Positions 5,647 to 59,153 of a stretch of 64,000 nucleotides of DNA are shown here, one piece after another. Position 1 is the first letter of the stretch; the number at the start of each line of letters is the position of its first letter. Position numbers and translations under genes: made by a program. The stretch lies in contig JAHLJT010008446.1 in assembly GCA_031308135.1 (NCBI GenBank), positions 167,770,264 to 167,834,263 of the forward strand, written 5' to 3'. The notes under the pieces were generated by a model that saw only the letters and a list, made by a program, of their open reading frames with translations, had not been told where the DNA came from and searched no databases. The DNA comes from Acheta domesticus (Eukaryota; Arthropoda; Insecta; Orthoptera; Gryllidae).

Positions 5647-6646
5647 NNNNNNNNNNNNNNNNNNNNNNNNNNNNNNNNNNNNNNNNNNNNNNNNNNNNNN
5701 NNNNNNNNNNNNNNNNNNNNNNNNNNNNNNNNNNNNNNNNNNNNNNNNNNNNNNNNNNNNNNNNNNNNNNNNNNNNNNNNNNNNNNNNNNNNNNNNNNNN
5801 NNNNNNNNNNNNNNNNNNNNNNNNNNNNNNNNNNNNNNNNNNNNNNNNNNNNNNNNNNNNNNNNNNNNNNNNNNNNNNNNNNNNNNNNNNNNNNNNNNNN
5901 NNNNNNNNNNNNNNNNNNNNNNNNNNNNNNNNNNNNNNNNNNNNNNNNNNNNNNNNNNNNNNNNNNNNNNNNNNNNNNNNNNNNNNNNNNNNNNNNNNNN
6001 NNNNNNNNNNNNNNNNNNNNNNNNNNNNNNNNNNNNNNNNNNNNNNNNNNNNNNNNNNNNNNNNNNNNNNNNNNNNNNNNNNNNNNNNNNNNNNNNNNNN
6101 NNNNNNNNNNNNNNNNNNNNNNNNNNNNNNNNNNNNNNNNNNNNNNNNNNNNNNNNNNNNNNNNNNNNNNNNNNNNNNNNNNNNNNNNNNNNNNNNNNNN
6201 NNNNNNNNNNNNNNNNNNNNNNNNNNNNNNNNNNNNNNNNNNNNNNNNNNNNNNNNNNNNNNNNNNNNNNNNNNNNNNNNNNNNNNNNNNNNNNNNNNNN
6301 NNNNNNNNNNNNNNNNNNNNNNNNNNNNNNNNNNNNNNNNNNNNNNNNNNNNNNNNNNNNNNNNNNNNNNNNNNNNNNNNNNNNNNNNNNNNNNNNNNNN
6401 NNNNNNNNNNNNNNNNNNNNNNNNNNNNNNNNNNNNNNNNNNNNNNNNNNNNNNNNNNNNNNNNNNNNNNNNNNNNNNNNNNNNNNNNNNNNNNNNNNNN
6501 NNNNNNNNNNNNNNNNNNNNNNNNNNNNNNNNNNNNNNNNNNNNNNNNNNNNNNNNNNNNNNNNNNNNNNNNNNNNNNNNNNNNNNNNNNNNNNNNNNNN
6601 NNNNNNNNNNNNNNNNNNNNNNNNNNNNNNNNNNNNNNNNNNNNNN
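5647..6646. other. Assembly gap (1000 N)
   Basis: Exactly 1000 N bases. The round number suggests a fixed-size scaffold gap rather than a measured distance. Open frames that run through it are artefacts. Any missing exon between 4182 and 31626 could lie here. Confidence 0.99.
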
Positions 6647-25346: not shown

Positions 25347-25425
25347 TCCGGCCCCCTTGGCACAGACGGTTGCGGTAGCCGTCGTCTGCTCCGATGGGGG
25401 TGCAGGTTCGAATCCTGCGTAGGCC
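25347..25425 (+). repeat. tRNA-headed SINE
   Basis: CCCCCTTGGCACAGACGGTT, then AGCCGTCGTCTGC, then a perfect B box GGTTCGAATCC at 25405-25415. It is the same family as 20472-20550. No tRNA gene is claimed because the acceptor stem does not pair. Confidence 0.7.
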
Positions 25426-25629
25426 TGATCGTATTTGTGATTGTCCCTTCACCCCTCGTTATCATCCTATCATTTCATTATTCATTTTTAAGGCTTAACA
25501 ACATTGCCTTACCAATATCTCAAGATCAAGTATCTCTTACCAAGAGATGGAGACGAAAAAGCCGATCCACATAATGACACGTTAATTTCTTTGGGGCCTC
25601 GAAAGATTACATGTACCGTGGTCATAAAT

Positions 25630-27955: not shown

Positions 27956-29527
27956 TCAGAAATGACGATTTTTTCTGCTGTATTTTGCTTGTGGAGCATC
28001 CCTGTTGATGGTCCAACAGTAATCGGCCAGCCTATTAGGATTCCATTTGCCTTGATATCTCTTTTCTATAGCTGAAATCTCTTGATGAAAGCATTCTCCG
28101 TGCTCATCGCTCACTGCGCCAAGATTTTCCGAGAAGAAATGTAGATGCGAGTGCAGGAAGTGTATTTTTAAGGACATATTACAGCCCAAATTTTTATAAG
28201 ATGTTATAAGATCATTGATAGTATTACGATAATTTTCTTCCCGTCGATTTCCCAAAAAACTGTGAGTTACTTTCTTGAATGCTTGCCAAGCTGCTTTCTC
28301 CAGTGGATTCAATAGTTCCTCAAACTTCTCATCATGCATTAGTGATCGTAATTGTGGACCCACAAATATCCCTTCTTTAATTTTCGCTTCACTAATTTTT
28401 GGAAACTTCTGTTTTAGGTACATGAAACCAGGAGTATTGCTCATGGCTTTCACGAAATTCTTCATTAGTCCTAGTTTGATATGTAACTGAGGTAGATACA
28501 CATTTTTAGGATTACACAATGAGTCATGTTTCACATTTTTCTGTCCAGGAATGAATGATTCGCGTTTAGGCCATTCTTTTCTGGTGTAATGGTCCCTACT
28601 GTCCCTACTGTTCTGGTCCCTACTATCCCAAAGACACAAAAAACAACAGTACGTTGTGTAACCAAGCTGCAGACCAAGAATAAGCGCAATTACCTTCAAA
28701 TCACCACAAATATTCCATTCATACACTGCATATTGAAGCTTTCTCGATATAAATTGAAAGTTTTCATATGTTTCTTTCATACTAGCAGAGTGAGCCAGAG
28801 GTATTGATGGAAATTTATTTCCATTATGCAGAAACTTGCTTTAGAGGAATCAATGAACAAGCGCCATTCTGTTGGGTTATGTTCAATGCCAAATATCTCC
28901 ATAAGAGAAGGAATGTCATTTCAAAACACTAAGCCATTTTCTCACCAACCCAACCCAAGAATTTCAGACTGGATTTTGGGTAACTTTAAGTCTCGTGTGA
29001 GGCTCACATGAAACAAATGAGGCTCACATGAACAGGTTTGTTCAAAAGTTGTATCATCAAAATCTGTTTCTTCTTCTTCTTCCTTACTTCCATGGGAATC
29101 TGAGCTCTCTTTATCTAATGGCACATGTTCTGGAGGCTTTGGTATGGACAATTCTTCGCTGTGTGGAACGGGTCTCGTTGCAGATTGCAAGTCGGGGTAC
29201 ACCACTGTATGTTTTGATTTTGACGTAATTCCTTTAATATTTGTTAAGCAGAAATAACAGTCAGAGGAGTGATCTTTAGGTTCCCTCCAAATCATAGGGA
29301 TAGCAAATGGCATGTGACGTGTGCCATTCTTCCATGCAGTTAGAAGCCTACTACATGATAAACAACAGATATGTGGGGCCCAGGTCCTTGTTTGGTCCCC
29401 CACTTTACACCCAAAATAAAATTCATAACACTCTTTTACTAATGGAGTAAGGTTTCGCCTTTGAAACTTCAGCATCACTTCACCACATATATAACAAAAG
29501 TTATGATTTAAACAAACTCTTAGGCAT
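27956..29527 (-). pseudogene. Transposase-like gene, decayed copy 2 of the 49643 family
   Basis: This is a near-complete homologue of the intact gene at 49643-51343, on the minus strand. From an ATG at 29527 it keeps FCYICGE, APHICCLSCSRLLTAW, PMIWREPKDHSSDCYFC, SKSKHTVVYPDLQSATRPVP, an acidic linker, WRLFIDSSKA (first candidate Asp), NICGDLKVIALILGLQ (second Asp), CCFLCLWDSRDQ, LPQLHIKLGLMKNFVKAM and SDEHGECFHQEI (candidate Glu). It ends at a stop at 27956. A frameshift near the start, stops around 28940 and 28880, and a small deletion after the first Asp divide it into pieces; the last 274 codons are open. The conserved positions help define which residues matter. No inverted repeats could be found around this copy. 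Confidence 0.9.
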
Positions 29528-32569: not shown

Positions 32570-33255
32570 TTAGTAAACCTTACCCAGAAAATTCTCACGT
32601 CTCTTGAGATCTCCTTCTGGACCTTCTGTGTATATTATCCAGTGATAATTGGCCATCACGGAGTCATTCGACACCTTGGTAGCGCTGCTCCATTGTTCTA
32701 GTGTCTTAGTGGAATCGCTCACCTTATTCATCACGTCACCGAGATAATCGGGGAAGAAATCTAATGGAAATGTAGAAAGTATAACTTAAGTGACATTCTA
32801 CAGCCCAGTTTTTAAAATTACAAAAGTCTTTTGATTCCATTAACAAAATCTGAAGATTGTTTTTTCACTAGGAATTTTCACAAATCTACCTAAAACTTGT
32901 CCAGGTATCTTGTTTTTCTGAAGTCATCATTTGCGTTATCGCATCTTTAAATATCTCGGATTTGTGGCCCTGCGATGTTTCCTTCCTTAATTTTTGCTAC
33001 ACTGATTATTGGATTTTTTTCTAGGAGTTACTGGAGTGGTCCAGAGTTTGACTTACCCATCGTCTTTAACAAACCAATTAATCTATGCATTATATGAAGA
33101 GGAGGGAAAAAAATGTTGGGATCAACGAGAGGGCCGTTGAGTACACTGTGTTTCCCACGTTTATACGAAACTCACTAATTCCCGTTCGAACTTCTATGCT
33201 GTAATGTTCTGATGCATATTGACTGTCCCACAAACATAACTAGAGGTCCTACCAA
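32570..33255 (-). pseudogene. Transposase-like gene copy 3, C-terminal part
   Basis: On the minus strand: LCLWDSQYASEHY, then FFPPLHIMHRLIGLLKTMGK, then VAKIKEGNIAGPQIRDI, then KLGCRMSLKLYFLHFHLDFF followed by PDYLGDVMNK, then VMANYHWII. These align in order with residues 338 to about 545 of the intact protein at 49643. The candidate Glu region is eroded (MNKVSDS). Frameshifts are frequent. The N-terminal part of the same reading order is at 35555-36510, so one old copy has been split by later insertions. Confidence 0.8.
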
Positions 33256-33745
33256 AGCACATACTTTCTCGCATTGTTCCTAAATGCTCCGCAATATTAT
33301 ACTATTACATAAACCAGCAAAAGTGTTTTCAACTGGATAATTGTTTTCCGCTCCGAGACGCGATCTCAAAAACTCAGAGTTAACTTGCTAGTATTCATAC
33401 AACTACGCCACATAAGCACGCATATATTGAACTCGAGCTGAGGCATAAAAACGTAAATGCCCGATTCATGTTAAAAAAAACAATAAATAATTCGCGACAA
33501 GGCATAAAAAATTCCACCATAGATATATTTTTCCCTTTCTCATTCAAATTCAAAATGCAAATTCAACTCATATTGCAACCAAAGTACATAACTTTTTTCC
33601 ATTGTTTCTAAATGCTCCACAATAACATACATCTACATAAACCAATAAAAGTTTTTTTTCCATTCCGACACTCGTCCCTATTTCCTCAGAGATAACGTGC
33701 TGGCGCTGATACCATTACGCCACCCAGCGAAGTGCGCTGGAAAAT
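33255..33745 (-). repeat. Diverged direct duplication with tRNA-like head
   Basis: 33252-33420 and 33588-33740 resemble each other (ACCAAAGYACATA, then ATTGTTYCTAAATGCTCC, CATAAACCARYAAAAG and ACTACGCCACATAAGC or ATTACGCCACCCAGCG), so a unit of about 336 bp is repeated. On the minus strand the second unit reads TGGCGTAATGGTATCAGCGC and GGGACGAGTGTC, like tRNA A and B boxes. It lies within the insertion that splits transposase copy 3. Confidence 0.5.
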
Positions 33746-33774
33746 TCGGTCGTTTTCTGGCGCACGATTACATA

Positions 33775-33813
33775 ACTTTCTCTTCTTACGAAGTATTCGT
33801 AAGGCGAGAAAGT
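33775..33813. repeat. R-element terminal hairpin
   Basis: ACTTTCTCTTCTTACGAAGT continues into ATTCGTAAGGCGAGAAAGT, an imperfect palindrome preceded by GATTACATA. It matches in position and outer stem the hairpin at 47237-47270, with a different inner sequence. Confidence 0.7.
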
Positions 33814-33814
33814 A

Positions 33815-34112
33815 ATAATAATTTGGGAATCGTTAGGGATATGTAAGTTGATCGCATGGGTTCTGGTTAAATTGTATTTCAATTTAATGTTGAAATATTC
33901 ATAATTTTACTTAAACTGGTTCATACAGATGCACACAAGACAACGATTGATTTGATGTGATATACGTTTCAGAAATCGATTAACAGAGTTGAAAAAATGT
34001 TTGAAAGTTGCAATTTGTATTGATTCTATTTGTAAGTAGAAGTACTTTAAATGATTGTCAATAAGGTTTCTACAATCTTCAATGTTTTTTCTGCAACACA
34101 TTCATCAAATAA
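33815..34112. other. AT-rich spacer
   Basis: No recognised element. It separates two R-element fragments. Confidence 0.4.
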
Positions 34113-34196
34113 AAATCCCCGTCTGGGATTCGAACCCGTTTTTTTCGATCTGCAGCGCTCTGAACTCGCTTTAACCAACTCGGCCATTCGGGTTAG
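34113..34196 (-). repeat. tRNA-like SINE head
   Basis: On the plus strand GGGATTCGAACCC (34125-34137) is the reverse complement of a tRNA B box, and AACTCGGCCATTCGGGTTAG is a reversed A-box region. The spacing between them is tRNA-like. The middle (TTTTTTTCGATCTGCAGCGC) does not form a clear anticodon arm, so a SINE or tRNA relic is more likely than a working tRNA gene. Confidence 0.5.
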
Positions 34197-34284
34197 TTAC
34201 GAACTGGCCACTTATATATTTGTCAAGACGATTATATCACTGTGGAATTAGGAAGCCGGTAAGAGAACTAACAACTGCGAGAAA

Positions 34285-35545
34285 GTCTGAGCCATTCTAT
34301 AGCACCACTAGTTCACCGTCCCTTATGACATGTGGAGAAAATTTAAAGAAAAAAATTGGAGCGGTTTTTGAGAACAAAATTTTGGTGAATTTCAAGCGCA
34401 AATCACGCAAAAACTACTGTTTTTTCTCAAATATATTGTACATGACGTTATTTAAAGACCTAATTTTGTACAACCGACTGAAGCAAAAATCTCTATCTTC
34501 AATTTTGCAATTTTGACTTTTTTTGCAATTTTCGAAAAATCGGGGATATCAACGAAGATGATACCTGCATCATTCTCTTAAACGTCCTTCTCACTCTTCA
34601 ACTGCCACAAGTCTGGCGGACAAGTCATAGGATTAGAGGGAGCAAAACTTGCTAATGAGAGGGGGGATCACTACAACCAAGAGGAAGGAGCCTTGGTCTC
34701 AGTATTAATTGAGGAAGCAAAAATTTAAAAAAAAGCACTTATTTAAACGTATTTATTGCTATGAATTTAGCTATGATAATTTGTCCATCTCAGAGAGGCT
34801 GAAGGCCCTAGAAAATGTAATACGTTCTCACGTGGCACACGTTCTCCACCCAGCTCCCGGTCTCGCAGCACCCATCTGTCATGGCGCCAGTCCCCAGTCT
34901 CGCCCACAAGCAGTCCGAAGCTCAAAGGAAGCCGGTTTTTAGGGGCGCATGGAATTATGTGAGCACGGGTCACGTGACACTGATGTTGAAGTGCGAGTCG
35001 TTCCTGTAGCCAGATCTTTTGCAAAACTACTGCGTCCCAGGGAGCGCCCAAGCCTGTTTCTGCTGACTGCAGTCCATTCTTTGGCTGCTCAGTCGTCAGC
35101 AGGTCGCGCCACACCCGTCTGCACTTGGCCACCGTGACCCGAATACCCATGGCGTTTGCTATATACACTTTTACTAAATACAATTTCTTTATGTGACACA
35201 ACAAAAAAATTTATTCAAAAAAATTAGAGCCTTGTTTGAAAACTTTGAAAATGTCCGAGGGTTAAAATATCGGAGCCTCGACATCAGCCAAAACGGTTTA
35301 GGCGCTTGCATTGACCACAGACAGAGGAACGTTTTACCGTCACTCGATTTTTCGGTATCAAGAGACATCAAAACGTGGATTTTGGCTACACCACGAGGAG
35401 GATTTTTTCTAAAGTTAGCAACAGGATTTATCTACTTTTTCGTTATCAGAGCCCGACAATGAGAGTGTTTCAGACGAAAATTCGCCGTTTTCTGGTGCAC
35501 GAATTTTCTCTTCTTACGATGTGTTCGTAAAGTGAGAAAGTAAAA
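34285..35545 (+). repeat. R-element fragments, interrupted
   Basis: 34285-34318 is a reversed outer end (GCCATTCTATAGCACCACTA, then GTTC). From 34320 to about 34560 a forward internal piece follows (TTTAAAGAAAAAAATTGGAG, then CGGTTTTTGAGAACAAAATT). From about 35195 a forward 3' part resumes (TTGAAAATGTCCGAGGG, then TTTTTCGGTATCAAGAGACA) and ends in the hairpin at 35504-35541. A GC-rich insertion separates the pieces. Orientation and order show at least two copies broken and joined. Confidence 0.7.
34780..35150. other. GC-rich insertion inside an R element
   Basis: An island of GC-rich DNA interrupts the AT-rich R element. The minus-strand frame (34767-35204) reads NRLPLSFGLLVGETGDWRHD but has no family I recognise. 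Probably an inserted repeat of unknown type. Confidence 0.35.
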
Positions 35546-35554
35546 AGCAGCAAC

Positions 35555-36510
35555 AGTTTGAAAATCCTCCTCACCAACGAGTTTAAGTTCTTCACAAATG
35601 TTTCATTGTTGATCACTGTAATTAATAGCTTCCAGTGGCATCTTCATGTTTTCGTAGTTTTCCTTTAAGTGAACTGATTGTGCAATGGGAATAGAAGGTT
35701 TTATATTCCCATTGTGTAGGAGAACTGCTTTCAAACTTCGCCAGGAAGAGTGAAAAAAGTGTGGCCATTCTGTGTTATATTCTTGTTGCAGTTCACCGAA
35801 GAGACTGCGAATGTCGTTGCAGAAAACCGTCGATCTTTTCACTGTGAAATAGTTTTTCAATTCATAGTTCCCTCAACGATAGTAGCAGATTTGGGAATCT
35901 TCCGTTAAAAGGGTTTTTCTTTTAATCTTGAAGCAAGAATTTCCGCTTGACGGTGACTTTGACGGTGAAAGGTCTCTTACGAGATCATTTACTTCCCGCT
36001 TATTAAAAGTTTTGTTTTGGAATTTTGTTTTCTCAAGGGCGAACTCCTCGTGGGTGAAATCGTCACTTCACAAATCCTCCCACTGCATATTTCGTAACCG
36101 TGCGTGTCGTTTCTCTTGGGGTTTGGGAACCGGCAAAAACTCGTCGTGTGGAATTCGTCTCCTTGCTGATGGCATATCCCACTACACGATCTTTTTGCTT
36201 GTTTTTGACGAAAAACCATCATTAGTATTTCAACACAAATAGCAGTCATCATCATGGTTATTTGGCTCGCGCTATACCCTCAGTATTGCAAATGGCATTG
36301 AAAGTTTTCGTTTATTTATCCAGTCTCGTAAACCTTTCAAGGCGCTGAACATATAACATGGGGAGCACAGTATTTGTCTTGATCTCCTAGTGCACAACCG
36401 AAGTATATATACATATTTTCTGTATTTGAGGCAATCCCACGCCGCTGGCGTTTTGTTGTGAGGGAACCACACATGCAGCAAAATGTGTTTGGGATATTTT
36501 TGTACTTTCA
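35555..36510 (-). pseudogene. Transposase-like gene copy 3, N-terminal part
   Basis: Minus-strand blocks in order: CCMCGSLTTKRQRR; YFGCALGDQDKYCAPHVICS; ALKGLRDWINKRKLSMPFAI; REPNNHDDDCYLC; PSARRRIPHDEFLPVPKPQE; NKREVNDLVRDLSPSKS; WRSLKAVLLHNGNIKPSIPI; KENYENMKMPLEAINYS; and ICEELKLV at about 35570. These match residues 16 to about 321 of the intact protein, with the second candidate Asp changed to Glu. Several frameshifts break the frame. The gene resumes at 33255, so the intervening 2.3 kb is inserted DNA with R-element and SINE-like pieces. Confidence 0.8.
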
Positions 36511-48179: not shown

Positions 48180-49338
48180 GATACACACAGTCATCACAGT
48201 GAACATTTATAGTCTAGATATCAAAATTTAAAGCCCATAACTGGAACTTTAAAAATACATTCTTCCATTCCTTTGTCACTGAAGCTACAGTGAAACTACT
48301 TTCTTCCGCTACAGATGGTAAGTGAGTATATTTGAAATGAGTTTTGAGGGACAAAATAATTTCAAACTGTGAGTCAAGAATCCGTCATTAAATAACCAAA
48401 AATAATCCTGAAGGTGCGCCACCTCAAGAATTACTGAAATTACTGCATCATCCCAAAGAACTGCCGGCCAATAACGCAAGAAACGATTCTGTTGCAGCAA
48501 TCTACTACACATTGGTTCGTAAAAAATCCACATTTTTTAAAGTTACCTAGATCTCTCTTTGATTTTTTCTAGAATTCTTAACCAGACTCTAATGAATTTA
48601 TAAATATTTTTTAAACAATTTTTTAGCTCATCGACTTTACAAAAATGTTCAATTTCAAAATTAAAATTAAAGTTTAGGAAAATAAATACTTTGCAAAATC
48701 TAAAAACATTAACATGTTTTTAAGTTTCGAATGGAATTTGAACGGAGCTTTTATAATTAGTGTATTCAAGTATATGATACTTTAAAGTTAGTGATGCGCG
48801 TCATTTTTAGCAAATTTCAATGTGCAATATTTCCAAAAATAATAAAGTTGGAAAAATTTAAAAATACGCATGTTGACATATTGAATCCATATAATAGAGA
48901 AAAAAAATATAAAATAATTAAAAATATGAAGGGCAAATTTTGGTATTTTTGTGCGATTTGACGTGGAATGGCTGTGCTGTGCTTATACGCTGCTTTACGG
49001 TGAAGGGCCGACCACGACTAAGTTCACGCAGGATTCGTTGTCGTGGAAAGGGTTGTGAATGGTTTTCTGCAAAAGAAAGTTCATTACGCTCAACAAAATA
49101 CTGAGCAGATGCGAAATCTGAATATTGTCATATAACTCTGAAAATAATTCAGTGGGCCATTGAGAACTAAGTGCATGGGATGCTTTGTGCAGATGTTGTT
49201 TTTTCTGAGCAATAACTCACTCTCACAATCGCTCTTGTGCTCTGTTACGTGGATTTGTTTACCCCATCTCCCGAGCTCCCCTCCCCGCTCCTGCATTTTG
49301 CATCTTTTCTTACACAGCGAAAAGTTTCTGACCTGCAT
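48180..49338. other. AT-rich non-coding stretch
   Basis: No recognisable element. It ends directly before the TAA duplication of the transposon at 49342. Confidence 0.4.
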
Positions 49339-49341
49339 AAC

Positions 49342-49480
49342 ACAGGCCTACAAAAAAAATTTTTTGTTTGGTGCCTCAAATGTTAGAGCTGATTCTTATA
49401 GTATTTTTTGCGCTGATTTCAAATCTGCAAACCATTTTTTTGTATCAGCTCTAGTTTTTGAGATACATCATGTATCATTT
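49342..49480 (+). repeat. Left terminal inverted repeat
   Basis: It pairs with 51447-51583. Outer 8 bases are identical, the exact 14-base block is at 49410-49423, and AGCTCTAGTTTT is at 49447-49458. Overall similarity is moderate, with small indels (the 14-mer is 68 bases from the outer edge here and 60 on the right). Confidence 0.75.
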
Positions 49481-49642
49481 TCAGTTATTTAGGCCTATAC
49501 AGTATAATGTAGCAGATATGCATGTTATACCACTCAATGTTAGGTAAATATTTTAATTTTTTACAGTTGGCAGTACCAGCTGAGTTTGTTTTGTTTAATG
49601 ATGCTCGCAATATAAACAAACCAGTGAACCTAAAATAGTGCA

Positions 49643-51343
49643 ATGGCTTCACACCGAAGAAGTTGTGTAAATCATCCTGAGATATTTTGCTATGTTTGTG
49701 GTGAATATACATTCGTGGAAAACCGAAAACCTATCTCCGATTTCTTGAAAAGAGCGTACTTGGCTTATTTTGGTGTTAAGTTAGGCGACCAAGATAAAAC
49801 ATGGGCTCCACATTCAGTGTGCAAAACCTGTAATGAACATTTAAGGCAGTGGACTAATGGCAAGAGAAGGAATCTTAAGTTTGGTGTGCCCATGGTTTGG
49901 AGGGAACCAAAGAATCATGTTGATGATTGTTACTTTTGTTTGGTGAGAATCACAGGAATAAACAAGAAAAATCATAGCAAGTGGACCTATCCTGATCTTC
50001 CTTCTGCAAGACGTCCTATTTCTCATTCAGATGAAGTGCCCATTCCTACTTTTCATCTACTTCCCATTGTCAGTGATGATGAAGAACATTATTCTGATGC
50101 CCTAGGCCTACATGATGTAGGTGATACTAGTGATTGTGACTATGAAGGGACAAGCTCAAGTCCCCAGCGTTTCAACCAAAATGAGTTAAGTGATCTAGTA
50201 AGAGACCTACGCCTTTCAAAAGAAGCTGCAGAACTTTTAGCATCTAGACTTAATGAGAAGAACTTACTTGACCCGGGAACTACAATAACTTTTTACCGTA
50301 AGAGAGAACAATCTTTGCTGCCATTCTTCAACAATGAAGACAATTTAGTATTTTGTCACGATGTCCAAGGTTTATTACTAGCAATGGGTCTATCTCAGTA
50401 CTTGTCCGAAGATTGGCGTTTGTTCATTGACAGTTCTAAACGAAGTTTGAAATGTGTTCTTTTGCACAATGGGAACAAATATGGTTCCATACCAATTGCC
50501 CATTCAACGAAAATGAAAGAAGAGTATGACAACGTAGCTGTGGTCTTGGACAAAATTAAGTACAATGAGCATCAGTGGGTAATTTGTGTTGACCTAAAAA
50601 TGGTAAATTTCTTGCTAGGACAGCAAGGGGGCTACACAAAGTTTCCTTGCTTCTTGTGTTTGTGGGATAGCAGAGCTAAACAAGCCCATTGGGTTAGAAG
50701 AGATTGGCCTGAACGAGAAGAAATGGTTGTAGGGCAAAGAAATGTGATTAACGAAGCCTTAGTTTCTAGGGATAAAATCATTTTGCCTCCACTACATATA
50801 AAGCTAGGTTTGATGAAGCAGTTTGTGAAAGCTCTCGACAAGGACGGTCCATGCTTTGTTTATATAGGTCGTAAGATGCCTGGAATAAGCGCAGAAAAAC
50901 TTAAAGCTGGCATTTTTGATGGTCCACAAATCAGACAGCTTGTGAAAGATCCAGAGTTTGTGAACTCTATGAGTCCCGTGGAAAGCAGAGCGTGGAAATC
51001 GTTTGTACAAGTTATTACAAAGTTTTTGGGAAACATTAAAGCTGACAATTATGTTGAGCTTGTCAACAACATGCTCGATAACTTCGAAAGGCTGGGATGC
51101 AACATGAGCATAAAAGTGCATTACCTACACAGCCACCTGGACCATTTCCCTCACAACCTTGGCGATTTTATTGAGGAACAAGGAGAACGGTTTCACCAAG
51201 ACATGAAGACCATGGAGGATCGTTTTCAAGGAAGATGGGATACCCACATGATGGCGGACTACTGCTGGAACTTGGAAAGAAGTTGCCGAAACCAGATCCA
51301 TTCTAGGTCGTCACGGAAAAGAACTTTTCACAGTGTCAACTAA
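49643..51343 (+). CDS. Putative DDE-type transposase, 566 aa, intact
   Basis: The ORF is unbroken and intronless from ATG 49643 to TAA 51343. The N-terminus has C16xxC19, 40 residues, then C60xxC63, the Cys4 spacing of ZAD-type DNA-binding domains, and a third CxxC at 96-99 inside WREPKNHVDDCYFC. An acidic linker (144-170) follows. The core shows WRLFIDSSKRS (D263), a beta-rich stretch to WVICVDLKMVNF (D317), then CFLC (336-339) and LPPLHIKLGLMKQF (H385), and later HYLHSHLDHF and IEEQGERFHQD (E512/E515). D, D, CxxC/H insertion and E in this order resemble RNase H-like transposases of the CACTA/RAG/hAT type. These residues are kept in the decayed copy at 27956. The family is one I recall only as 'uncharacterized' in arthropods; activity is not shown. 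Confidence 0.85.
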   Translation: MASHRRSCVNHPEIFCYVCGEYTFVENRKPISDFLKRAYLAYFGVKLGDQDKTWAPHSVCKTCNEHLRQWTNGKRRNLKFGVPMVWREPKNHVDDCYFCLVRITGINKKNHSKWTYPDLPSARRPISHSDEVPIPTFHLLPIVSDDEEHYSDALGLHDVGDTSDCDYEGTSSSPQRFNQNELSDLVRDLRLSKEAAELLASRLNEKNLLDPGTTITFYRKREQSLLPFFNNEDNLVFCHDVQGLLLAMGLSQYLSEDWRLFIDSSKRSLKCVLLHNGNKYGSIPIAHSTKMKEEYDNVAVVLDKIKYNEHQWVICVDLKMVNFLLGQQGGYTKFPCFLCLWDSRAKQAHWVRRDWPEREEMVVGQRNVINEALVSRDKIILPPLHIKLGLMKQFVKALDKDGPCFVYIGRKMPGISAEKLKAGIFDGPQIRQLVKDPEFVNSMSPVESRAWKSFVQVITKFLGNIKADNYVELVNNMLDNFERLGCNMSIKVHYLHSHLDHFPHNLGDFIEEQGERFHQDMKTMEDRFQGRWDTHMMADYCWNLERSCRNQIHSRSSRKRTFHSVN

Positions 51344-51446
51344 TGTCCCAACTAAGGCCGAATGGGTCTTGTAAGTTTGTATGTACGAGTAGGCATATCT
51401 CATTAAAATAACATTCTGAATTGAATTACTATTTTGTACTTTCATT

Positions 51447-51583
51447 CCTTATATATCATATATATCATAACTTGAAAACTAAAGCTCATAGAAAAAAACC
51501 AATGTCATTTTTGAAATCAGCGCCCCAAATATACTTAAAAACAGCATTAAAATCGTTTGCACCATTTTCTGTGTTGGCCTGTG
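51447..51583 (-). repeat. Right terminal inverted repeat
   Basis: Reverse-complement partner of 49342-49480. It contains TTTGAAATCAGCGC at 51510-51523, AAAACTAAAGCT at 51475-51486 and an outer GGCCTGTG at 51576-51583. Confidence 0.75.
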
Positions 51584-51589
51584 TAATTG

Positions 51590-55955: not shown

Positions 55956-55961
55956 AAAACT

Positions 55962-57352
55962 AGTGGCGCTACAGAATGCCACAGACTTTCCCGTATTAGT
56001 TTCCTATTTCTTTGGGTCTGAGCTAGCTATTTGGATTTGCTACACGACATACTCGTGCAAGCTGCCATCTGTCGCCGCCCCAAACTACATTTTTGACATT
56101 TTCTTAATTTTTCTGTTTCCTAATGGTAGAACGGAAATATTAATTTTAGAATATTAAAGAACAGTAAAACCGGGTCCTAAATGGGAATGTTCTTTGAAAA
56201 ATATGGAGCTATTTTTAAGAAAATGGCATTTAAGCGCTACTAGTAATGCGAAATTAGAAGCTCTTTTTCACAGAACATTTTTGGGTTTTCGAAACACTTC
56301 ATTTGAAGTCATTTGAAGCACATTAACCTTCAAATACGATATTGTTGGTAATCTGCATATTAAAGATTTGAGAGACCTTTAAAATAAAATTACATTTGTG
56401 TGATTTTTGACAAAACAAAAAAATACCCCAAATTGAACTTTACGTGATATTAAAGAGTAATTAGCACTTTCCGTTCGAAAAGTTTGAAGAACAAATTTGG
56501 AGCCATTTATGAGAAAATGGCGTTTGAGCGTTGATGAAAATTCGGTATTTTGAGCTAGTTTTCACAGAAAAAGGTTTAGTTCTCGAGAAACTTTACTTGA
56601 CATTATTTAAAGTACATGTACGTATAAATATAATAATGTGAACAAATCGCCTCTAATGTAAATATTACTGACGTGAGAGATGAGTAAAAAAAATACATAT
56701 TTGTATTTTTTGAAAAAACAAAAGTATAGAGCAATATGGCGTTTATATCATCTCATAGAGTACATTAGGCACTATCCGTACCAAACGTTTAAAGAAAGAA
56801 CTTGGAGTCGTTTTTGAGAAAATCTTGTTTTTGTAATGTTTTAAAACTGCAAATATTTCGCGTAATATTGGCAGAAAACTACTAAAATTTTCAAGAAAAT
56901 TGACATGACCTTAATGATAGAACTCACTTTGGAGAAAAAATTTTATTTGGACGAAAAATCATTATCTTCAAATTTGTAGTTGTAGGAAGACGCCGAAAAA
57001 ATTCCAACTTTTGAAATTTACGAAAATTTAGTTTACCCTGAAACTGGTATTTGTTGTGGAACTTCTTTAAAAGTGTATTTTATTCTATTCTTTACAAGAA
57101 ATTTAAAGAACAACAAGAATTTGGAGTCGTTTTTGAGAAAATTTTGAAAATTTCCGGGGGGGGCTTGATGTAAAGTACCCCCAAATTTTGAGGAATGTTT
57201 TTCAAAATATCGGCGCCTCGAGTGGAACAAGATCGACAAGGGGATATTCGTTTTGGAAGAAATCGTACTTATGGTTTAGGAGCTAATGTTGTTCACAGAC
57301 GGACAGACGGATGTTTTGAAAAGAACCACTTTTTCGGTATCAGGGAAAGTAA
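55962..57352 (+). repeat. R element, forward copy lacking the hairpin
   Basis: It starts CTAGTGGCGCTACAGAATGC and follows the reference copy throughout, with GGAG blocks at 56205, 56500, 56804 and 57123. After TTTTTCGGTATCAGG it jumps to GGAAAGTAAAA, so the segment from GTATCAGGGG to the last GGGAAAGT of the palindrome is deleted. Non-coding. Confidence 0.85.
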
Positions 57353-57478
57353 AAATAAATAAAAATATTAAGGTGGTGGACTCCTTGATCCTTCCTTTCG
57401 TATTTCTAGGGTGTAGGTCAAATTGTGTTCACAAGTTTTGCTAGCACAAACTTCGTGTTTTGCGCGATAATCATTATT
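57353..57478. other. Spacer between two opposed R elements
   Basis: About 125 bp of unrelated sequence between the forward copy and the reverse copy. Confidence 0.7.
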
Positions 57479-59153
57479 ACTTTCCCGTATACGTACGTAT
57501 ATACGGAGTATGTACGTAGTATGGGGAAAGTTATGTAATGCTGCGGAAAATCGGTTTCGAGATTTCAACGGAAAGACATGTTTTGGGGTCCCCTGGTAAC
57601 GAAAAAGTGGTTCTCTTCAAAACGTCCTCCGTCCGTCTGTGAGTCCGTGAACAACCGTAGCACCGAAACCATACGTACGATTTCTTCCAAAATGAATATT
57701 CCGCAGCCGATCTGGTTCCACTGCAGACGCCGCGATTTTGAAAACCATTCTTCAAAATTTGAGGGTACTTTACATGAAGCCCCCCGGACATTTTCATAAT
57801 TTTCTCAAAAACAGCTTCAATTTTTTCTTTAAATTTCGTGTAGGGATAGAGTAAAATACTCTTATGAAGGTGGCTTACGAGTAGGTTTCATGGTTAACTC
57901 TTAATTTTCGAAAATTGCAAATGTTTGCATTTTTTTGGCATCTTCCTCCAACTACAAAATTGAAGATAGAGATATTTCCATCAAATACAATTTGTTCTAC
58001 AAAGTCAGTTCTTTCTTTAAGGTCATGTATATTTTTTAAACTTTTATTCGTTTTCGCGCAATATGTGCAATTTACAAAAATACAAAAACAAAATTTTCTT
58101 CAAAACGGCTTCAAATTTTTTCTCTAAACTTTTGGTGGGGATAGTGTATAATGTACTCTATGAAATGACATAAAGGTCATGTTGCTCTATTCTTTTGTTT
58201 TTCTAAAAATTACAAAAATATAATTTTTTTACTTGCCTCTCACCTCGTTATATTTGCATTAGCGGCGATTTATTCACATTATTATATTTACATGTACATG
58301 TGCTTTAAACAATATCAGAAAAAATTCCCAAGGACTCTACCGTTTTCTGTGAAAACTAGATCAAATTTCCGCATTTTTAGAAACGCTCAAACGCTATTTT
58401 CTCATAAATGGCTCCAAATTTTTTCTTCAAAATTTTCGAACGGATAGTGTTCATTGCATTCTTTAATATGACGTAAAGTTCAATTTGGGATATTTTTGTT
58501 TTTTCAAAAATTACAAAAATGTAATTTTTTGAAATATTTCTCAAACCTTTAATGTGCACATTACCAGCAATTTGTAAACACTGTTGTATTTGCGAGTTTA
58601 CGTCCTTCAAACTGCTTCAAATTAAGTGTTTCGAAAACACAAAAATCTTCCCTGAAAAAAAGCTTCAGAGTTTTGCATTTTCAGTTGTGCTAAAACGCCA
58701 TTTTCTTAAAAATGGCTCTAAATTTTTCAAACAAAATTGCTATTTAGTACACGGTGTTAGTGTCCTTTAATATTCTAAAATTATTATTTCCGATCTACAA
58801 TTAGGAAACAGAAAAATTAAGAAAATGTCAAAAAACTGTACTTTGAGTGACGAAGAGCTTTAAATTTCGGATTTACAGTAGCGCTTAAACGCCATTTTCT
58901 TAAAAATGGCTCAGAATTTTCCGCGAAAATTACCATTTAGGACAAAGTTTTACGGTTTTTTAATATTCTTAAAATAATTTTTCTGTTATACTATTAGGAA
59001 TCCCAAAAATTAAGAAAATATCAAAAAATGTACTTTGGGCGGCGATAGATGACAGCTTTCAAGTGTTGTGGCAAGTCCGAATAGCTAGTCGAGACCAAAC
59101 GATAAAGAAAAGTAATACGGGAAAGTCTGTGCCATTCTGTAGCACCACTAGTT
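57479..59153 (-). repeat. R element, full-length reverse copy
   Basis: It begins with the hairpin end (TACTTTCCCGTATACGTACG continuing to GTACGTAGTATGGGGAAAGT, 57479-57535). It continues through TTGAAAACCATTCTTCAAAA and the repeated GGCTCCAAATTTTTT blocks (58102, 58406, 58711, 58897) to the outer edge GCCATTCTGTAGCACCACTA and GTTC at 59153. With the preceding forward copy it makes an inverted repeat of about 1.4 kb arms. Confidence 0.85.

Follow-up and report, generated by a model that had tools for sequence, protein, structure and literature searches.

A multicopy Chapaev3-type DNA transposon in the genome of Acheta domesticus

A DNA transposon of 2243 bp lies at positions 49341-51583 of a 64,000-nucleotide stretch of the Acheta domesticus genome (assembly GCA_031308135.1, contig JAHLJT010008446.1, positions 167,770,264 to 167,834,263 of the forward strand), the whole of which is referred to here as the window. 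The element is built around a single unbroken open reading frame (ORF) of 566 codons on the forward strand (49643-51343), which encodes a DDE transposase recognized by its relatives and its predicted fold, and it is very probably an autonomous-type Chapaev3 transposon that has recently spread in this genome. Chapaev3 transposons, reportedly the subject of work by Kapitonov and Jurka in 2008, have already been described as a group, which is merely unnamed in the protein databases consulted, and the element is a new member of this known kind. A preceding sequence-only reading had proposed an intact-looking DNA transposon around the 566-aa protein, a proposal borne out by the unbroken ORF, the defined ends and the many genome copies.

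Termini, genome copies and target sites

The left end of the element, CACAGGCC, begins at 49341, and the right end, GGCCTGTG, which is its complement, finishes at 51583. The boundaries proposed previously were 49342 and 51583, of which the right one holds and the left one is off by one base. The trinucleotide TAA is found directly outside both ends, at 49338-49340 (preceded by A at 49337) and at 51584-51586 (followed by T at 51587), and represents the left and right copies of the target-site duplication. The terminal inverted repeats comprise 118 bp on the left (49341-49458, plus strand) and 109 bp on the right (51475-51583, minus strand), and their alignment contains 84 identities, 21 mismatches and 17 gap columns. 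An exact 14-mer, GCGCTGATTTCAAA, is located at 49410 and, as an inverted copy, at 51510, which is 69 bases from the left end and 60 bases from the right end, respectively, and the terminal-repeat alignment places a AGCTnTAGTTTT block 37 bases from the 14-mer on both sides. The 14-mer, the second block at this offset and the flanking TAA had been noted before, and all were seen again. The shared 14-mer alone is unconvincing: 94 exact inverted 14-mer matches, many of which overlap one another, occur at spacings of 1.5-4 kb in the window. The diverged repeats, also part of the earlier proposal, align with a score of 53, which was reached by none of 2000 dinucleotide shuffles (32 at most); under another scoring scheme the repeats score 93, whereas randomly paired window segments (1980 pairs) score no more than 59.

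In a DNA search of the host assembly containing the window (2.33 Gb, 6511 contigs), 40 of 426 first candidates were scored. The search listed 40 near-full-length copies with 98-100% identity, the window copy included, plus three short end-repeat matches. The 39 other copies, examined with 300-bp flanks, have matches that start at query positions 26-42 and stop at 2284-2293, the element itself corresponding to query 42-2284, and the left terminus CACAGGCCTA and the right terminus GTG are present in all 40. Homology does not generally continue past these ends: only one pair among the 40 copies shares flanks, L009 and L033 on the same contig, which evidently derive from a single insertion that was duplicated along with the adjoining DNA and, since both flanks are common to them, were counted as one, leaving 39 independent insertions. 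In agreement with the previously suggested pattern of common ends and a 3-bp duplication, a perfect 3-bp duplication was observed in 38 of the 40 copies (19 TAA, 16 TTA, 1 ATA, 1 TCA and 1 TTT), the exceptions being L041 and L009. When only independent insertions are considered, 38 have a perfect duplication, the duplicated bases are TAA or TTA in 35, and an A precedes and a T follows them in 36. The end points, target and duplication of the element are established by these copies.

Patterns derived from the two ends were also matched to the genome. The left-end pattern gave 52 matches and the right-end pattern (last 24 bases, at most one mismatch) gave 61, with none in the reversed control for either. 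Thirty-three of the 52 left-end matches lie inside the 40 scored copies, and the remaining 19 comprise 16 further two-ended copies, one copy running off its contig, one truncated copy and one other element. As counted from their rows, 13 of these 16 have a perfect duplication and three (L060, L065 and L068) do not. Taken together, the 40 scored and 16 further copies amount to at least 56 two-ended copies in the host assembly, some of which may be the same insertion twice, such as L061 and L064, which have similar bases beside their ends. The left-end pattern also served to test for a burst of non-autonomous miniature inverted-repeat transposable elements, which was rejected, the 19 extra matches being mostly two-ended copies, one of them internally deleted. 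At L076 (C5655:75438964-75441964), which is preceded by TAA, the likeness is confined to roughly the first 23 bases of the left end, with one mismatch, and this locus is probably the terminus of a separate but related family.

Empty sites, whose existence had also been predicted, are visible at L020, a copy that interrupts an array of a 29-bp tandem repeat. After removal of the element and one TTA, the joined flank of 549 bp corresponds to 18.9 units with a 98% match and no insertions or deletions; because the array closes cleanly without the element, the neighbouring units can be taken as empty sites. Two other copies, L019 and L044, lie in 274-bp and 211-bp repeats that close less exactly, and no surrounding tandem array was seen at L023 when it was tested for one.

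The transposase and its assignment to Chapaev3

At least 1961 relatives of the transposase were found at E<=0.001, and among the 120 relatives listed, the readable names are hypothetical, unnamed or uncharacterized protein. Nine residues (D263, D317, C336, C339, L384, H385, H493, H498 and E512) are present in all 45 aligned proteins. D263 (50429-50431, codon checked) and D317 (50591-50593) are the predicted first and second catalytic Asp and E512 (51176-51178) the predicted catalytic Glu, all on the plus strand. D317 lies 19 residues before the C336-x2-C339 motif (50648-50659), and H493-x4-H498 (51119-51136, plus strand) would provide zinc ligands together with C336 and C339. The predicted fold is of the RNase H type found in RAG1 and Transib, with HzTransib and RAG1 as the best matches and HzTransib as the nearest, and the prediction thus gives the transposase a fold in common with the recombinase behind antibody-gene assembly. 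The likeness to Transib and RAG1 is one of fold, whereas a sequence search of solved structures (PDB chains) revealed no relevant relative and the structural alignments have 10-15% identity. A viral fold library gave no match to the predicted fold at E<=0.001, and no relative was confirmed in the scanned viral contigs (15 pattern-matching stretches) and prokaryote contigs (50). The RNase H fold had been suggested as a check, and its prediction near HzTransib and RAG1, along with the conserved, predicted catalytic residues, supports the earlier idea that this family of hypothetical proteins is a transposase family. A name and a likely mechanism are supplied for a family of this size.

The previous assignment to the CACTA/Mirage/Chapaev group can be narrowed to Chapaev3 by the ends, the TWA duplication and the motifs. 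CACTA/EnSpm proper has CACTA or CACTG termini, Mirage has a 2-bp target duplication, and Transib has a 5-bp GC-rich target duplication. Each was considered and rejected: the termini here are CACAG, the duplications are 3 bp long as counted above, and they are AT-rich, even though HzTransib is the closest match in predicted fold. In the excerpts of PMC4079192 used here, CAC/GTG ends and 3- to 4-bp duplications are hallmarks of Chapaev, while Chapaev3 is described by insertion between A and T with a TWA duplication, which empty sites confirmed, and by C(2)C, LH and H(4)H motifs. The present element resembles the Chapaev3 elements described there (Garfield, Merrow and Conan) in its CAC...GTG termini, its 3-bp TWA duplication between A and T, its size of about 2.2 kb, and its DDE transposase of about 560 aa with the C(2)C, LH and H(4)H motifs. 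It nevertheless represents a different family. Garfield and Merrow have two exons (Garfield_BM, 2,289 bp, encodes a 556-aa transposase in two exons) and the present element has one; most other Chapaev3 transposases are apparently single-exon according to the same excerpts. Chapaev3 has been grouped with Transib and RAG1, with a reported N-terminal 'Chapa' zinc domain, in the part of PMC4411706 consulted, and is a sublineage of Chapaev in that of PMC12730594.

The window also contains two older sequences related to the transposase. A decayed relative at 27965-29520 (minus strand) is 35-46% identical in two frames, which indicates that an older Chapaev3-like family was also once present in this genome. 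A second relative, at 32673-36498 on the minus strand, is more decayed, with many stops, and consists of two parts (36498-35576 and 33156-32673) that are apparently split by other DNA.

With respect to mechanism, a dimer of the transposase would bind and pair the two ends, involving the subterminal repeats and the N-terminal zinc domain of the protein. By analogy with RAG1 and Transib, excision at CAC/GTG would proceed through a nick followed by a hairpin on the flanking DNA. Insertion of the excised element into an ATWAT site would then involve a stagger of 3 bases, from which repair would yield the TWA duplication.

Age, activity and alternative explanations

The mean pairwise difference among the 40 copies is 0.507%, the mean difference from the majority sequence is 0.258%, and 197 variants are private to one copy whereas only 12 are shared. 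Such near-identical copies with mostly private variants indicate a recent burst. Substitution in insects proceeds at a rate of approximately 3e-9 per site per year, and with such an insect-like rate the spread would be dated to the order of a million years.

Several observations weigh against the reading of this element as an autonomous-type, recently spread Chapaev3 transposon. Five of the 56 two-ended copies (two of the 40 best and three of the 16 further copies) are without a perfect duplication; the assignment to Chapaev3 was made via published descriptions and not by direct comparison with a Chapaev3 sequence from Repbase or Dfam; dimer pairing and hairpin cutting would be features carried over from related systems; the full 566-aa frame is absent in 24 of the 40 best copies and in all 16 further two-ended copies; and the window copy is privately altered at the nearly invariant residue 510 (codon 51170-51172, two residues before E512), where the 15 other intact copies differ from it. 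Given that the comparison is by description and that CA..TG ends, like C(2)C and H(3-4)H motifs, are widely present in the CACTA/Mirage/Chapaev/Transib clade (as far as covered in PMC12730594), the element might belong to a separate superfamily of this clade that merely resembles Chapaev3. We regard this as very unlikely, as the published descriptions of Chapaev3, insofar as these were available, agree with the element in its TWA duplication flanked by A and T, its LH and H(4)H motifs, its size and its single exon. Even less can be said for a host gene situated between chance inverted repeats: although its relatives are listed as hypothetical or uncharacterized and an exact inverted 14-mer is by itself common in the window, approximately 60 copies that have their ends and target duplications in common, as well as the empty site, already refute this idea, whose probability is negligible.

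A more serious question is whether the Chapaev3 family is already extinct here, with all copies dead and their near identity left over from a past burst, which we consider possible although somewhat doubtful. The frequent loss of the full frame is in keeping with extinction; in addition, each of the 16 full proteins differs from all the others, and conserved residues are altered in some, such as C63 in one copy. Some of the frame breaks could be assembly errors in homopolymers. On the other hand, 16 of the 40 best copies (window copy included) keep the full frame, L009 carries no substitution relative to the majority, and all 16 intact proteins retain D263, D317 and E512. Regarding the earlier suggestion that the window copy is mobile or recently was, the recent burst of the family stands, but the copy itself may be impaired in view of the substitution that it alone carries close to E512, at a nearly invariant position; there are copies that lack this substitution. 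A literature search on Chapaev with assay terms gave no Chapaev assay among the titles listed. As a young, multicopy Chapaev3 family with ORF-intact copies, the family described here is suited to an activity test in the RAG1-related branch and is a candidate active Chapaev3 transposon for the study of DNA cutting in that branch.

The N-terminal zinc domain and other features of the window

The first 140 residues of the transposase (49643-50062, plus strand) form a Cys-rich, ZAD-like zinc domain that is conserved among aligned relatives and contains C16-x2-C19, C60-x2-C63, H92 and C96-x2-C99. Its apparent similarity to the ZAD (Pfam zf-AD, PF07776) of insect ZAD-zinc-finger proteins lies in two C-x2-C pairs, a similar predicted fold and a weak profile similarity. 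The domain from the window scored 17.2 bits, below the curated cut-off of 28, and PF07776 was matched at E<=1 by 15 of 23 N-terminal domains (best 7e-05), with FYVE as a competing weak match in 10 of the 23 (best E 0.0092). The Pfam RAG1_imp_bd domain gave a weak match in two of 45 proteins (best E 0.011). For comparison, the host genome served as the source of ZAD sequences, because a search for further ZAD proteins with a solved domain gave only one; eight of 12 zf-AD loci were used, and L050, L053, L054 and L055 were dropped, having no clean first part. The transposase domain differs from ZAD in its additional C96-x2-C99 pair and H92 and in its score below the Pfam cut-off; moreover, it heads a transposase, whereas insect ZAD proteins carry C2H2 fingers. 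Common ancestry of the Chapaev3 N-terminal zinc domain and the ZAD can be put forward tentatively, with the chances slightly on the unfavourable side. If true, it would tie a RAG1-clade transposase to a domain that ranks among the most abundant in insect transcription factors and, if confirmed, would provide a link between the evolution of transposases and transcription factors. The ZAD-like domain is possibly a new observation. No information on Chapaev was found in the ZAD literature searched, including the available portion of PMC9810180.

Some additional features were observed elsewhere in the window. Long inverted-repeat arms (TAGTGGnGCTACAGAATG...), about 3.2 kb apart (55961-59150) and with a 193-bp tandem repeat inside (58677-59037), are perhaps another mobile element. 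An ORF of 213 aa on the plus strand (1541-2182) is, judging from its motif, presumably a reverse transcriptase fragment of a non-LTR (long terminal repeat) retrotransposon. A run of exactly 1000 N at 5647-6646 is a possible assembly gap, and a tRNA-Ala (TGC) predicted by ARAGORN on the plus strand (25350-25426) may represent a gene or belong to a short interspersed element.
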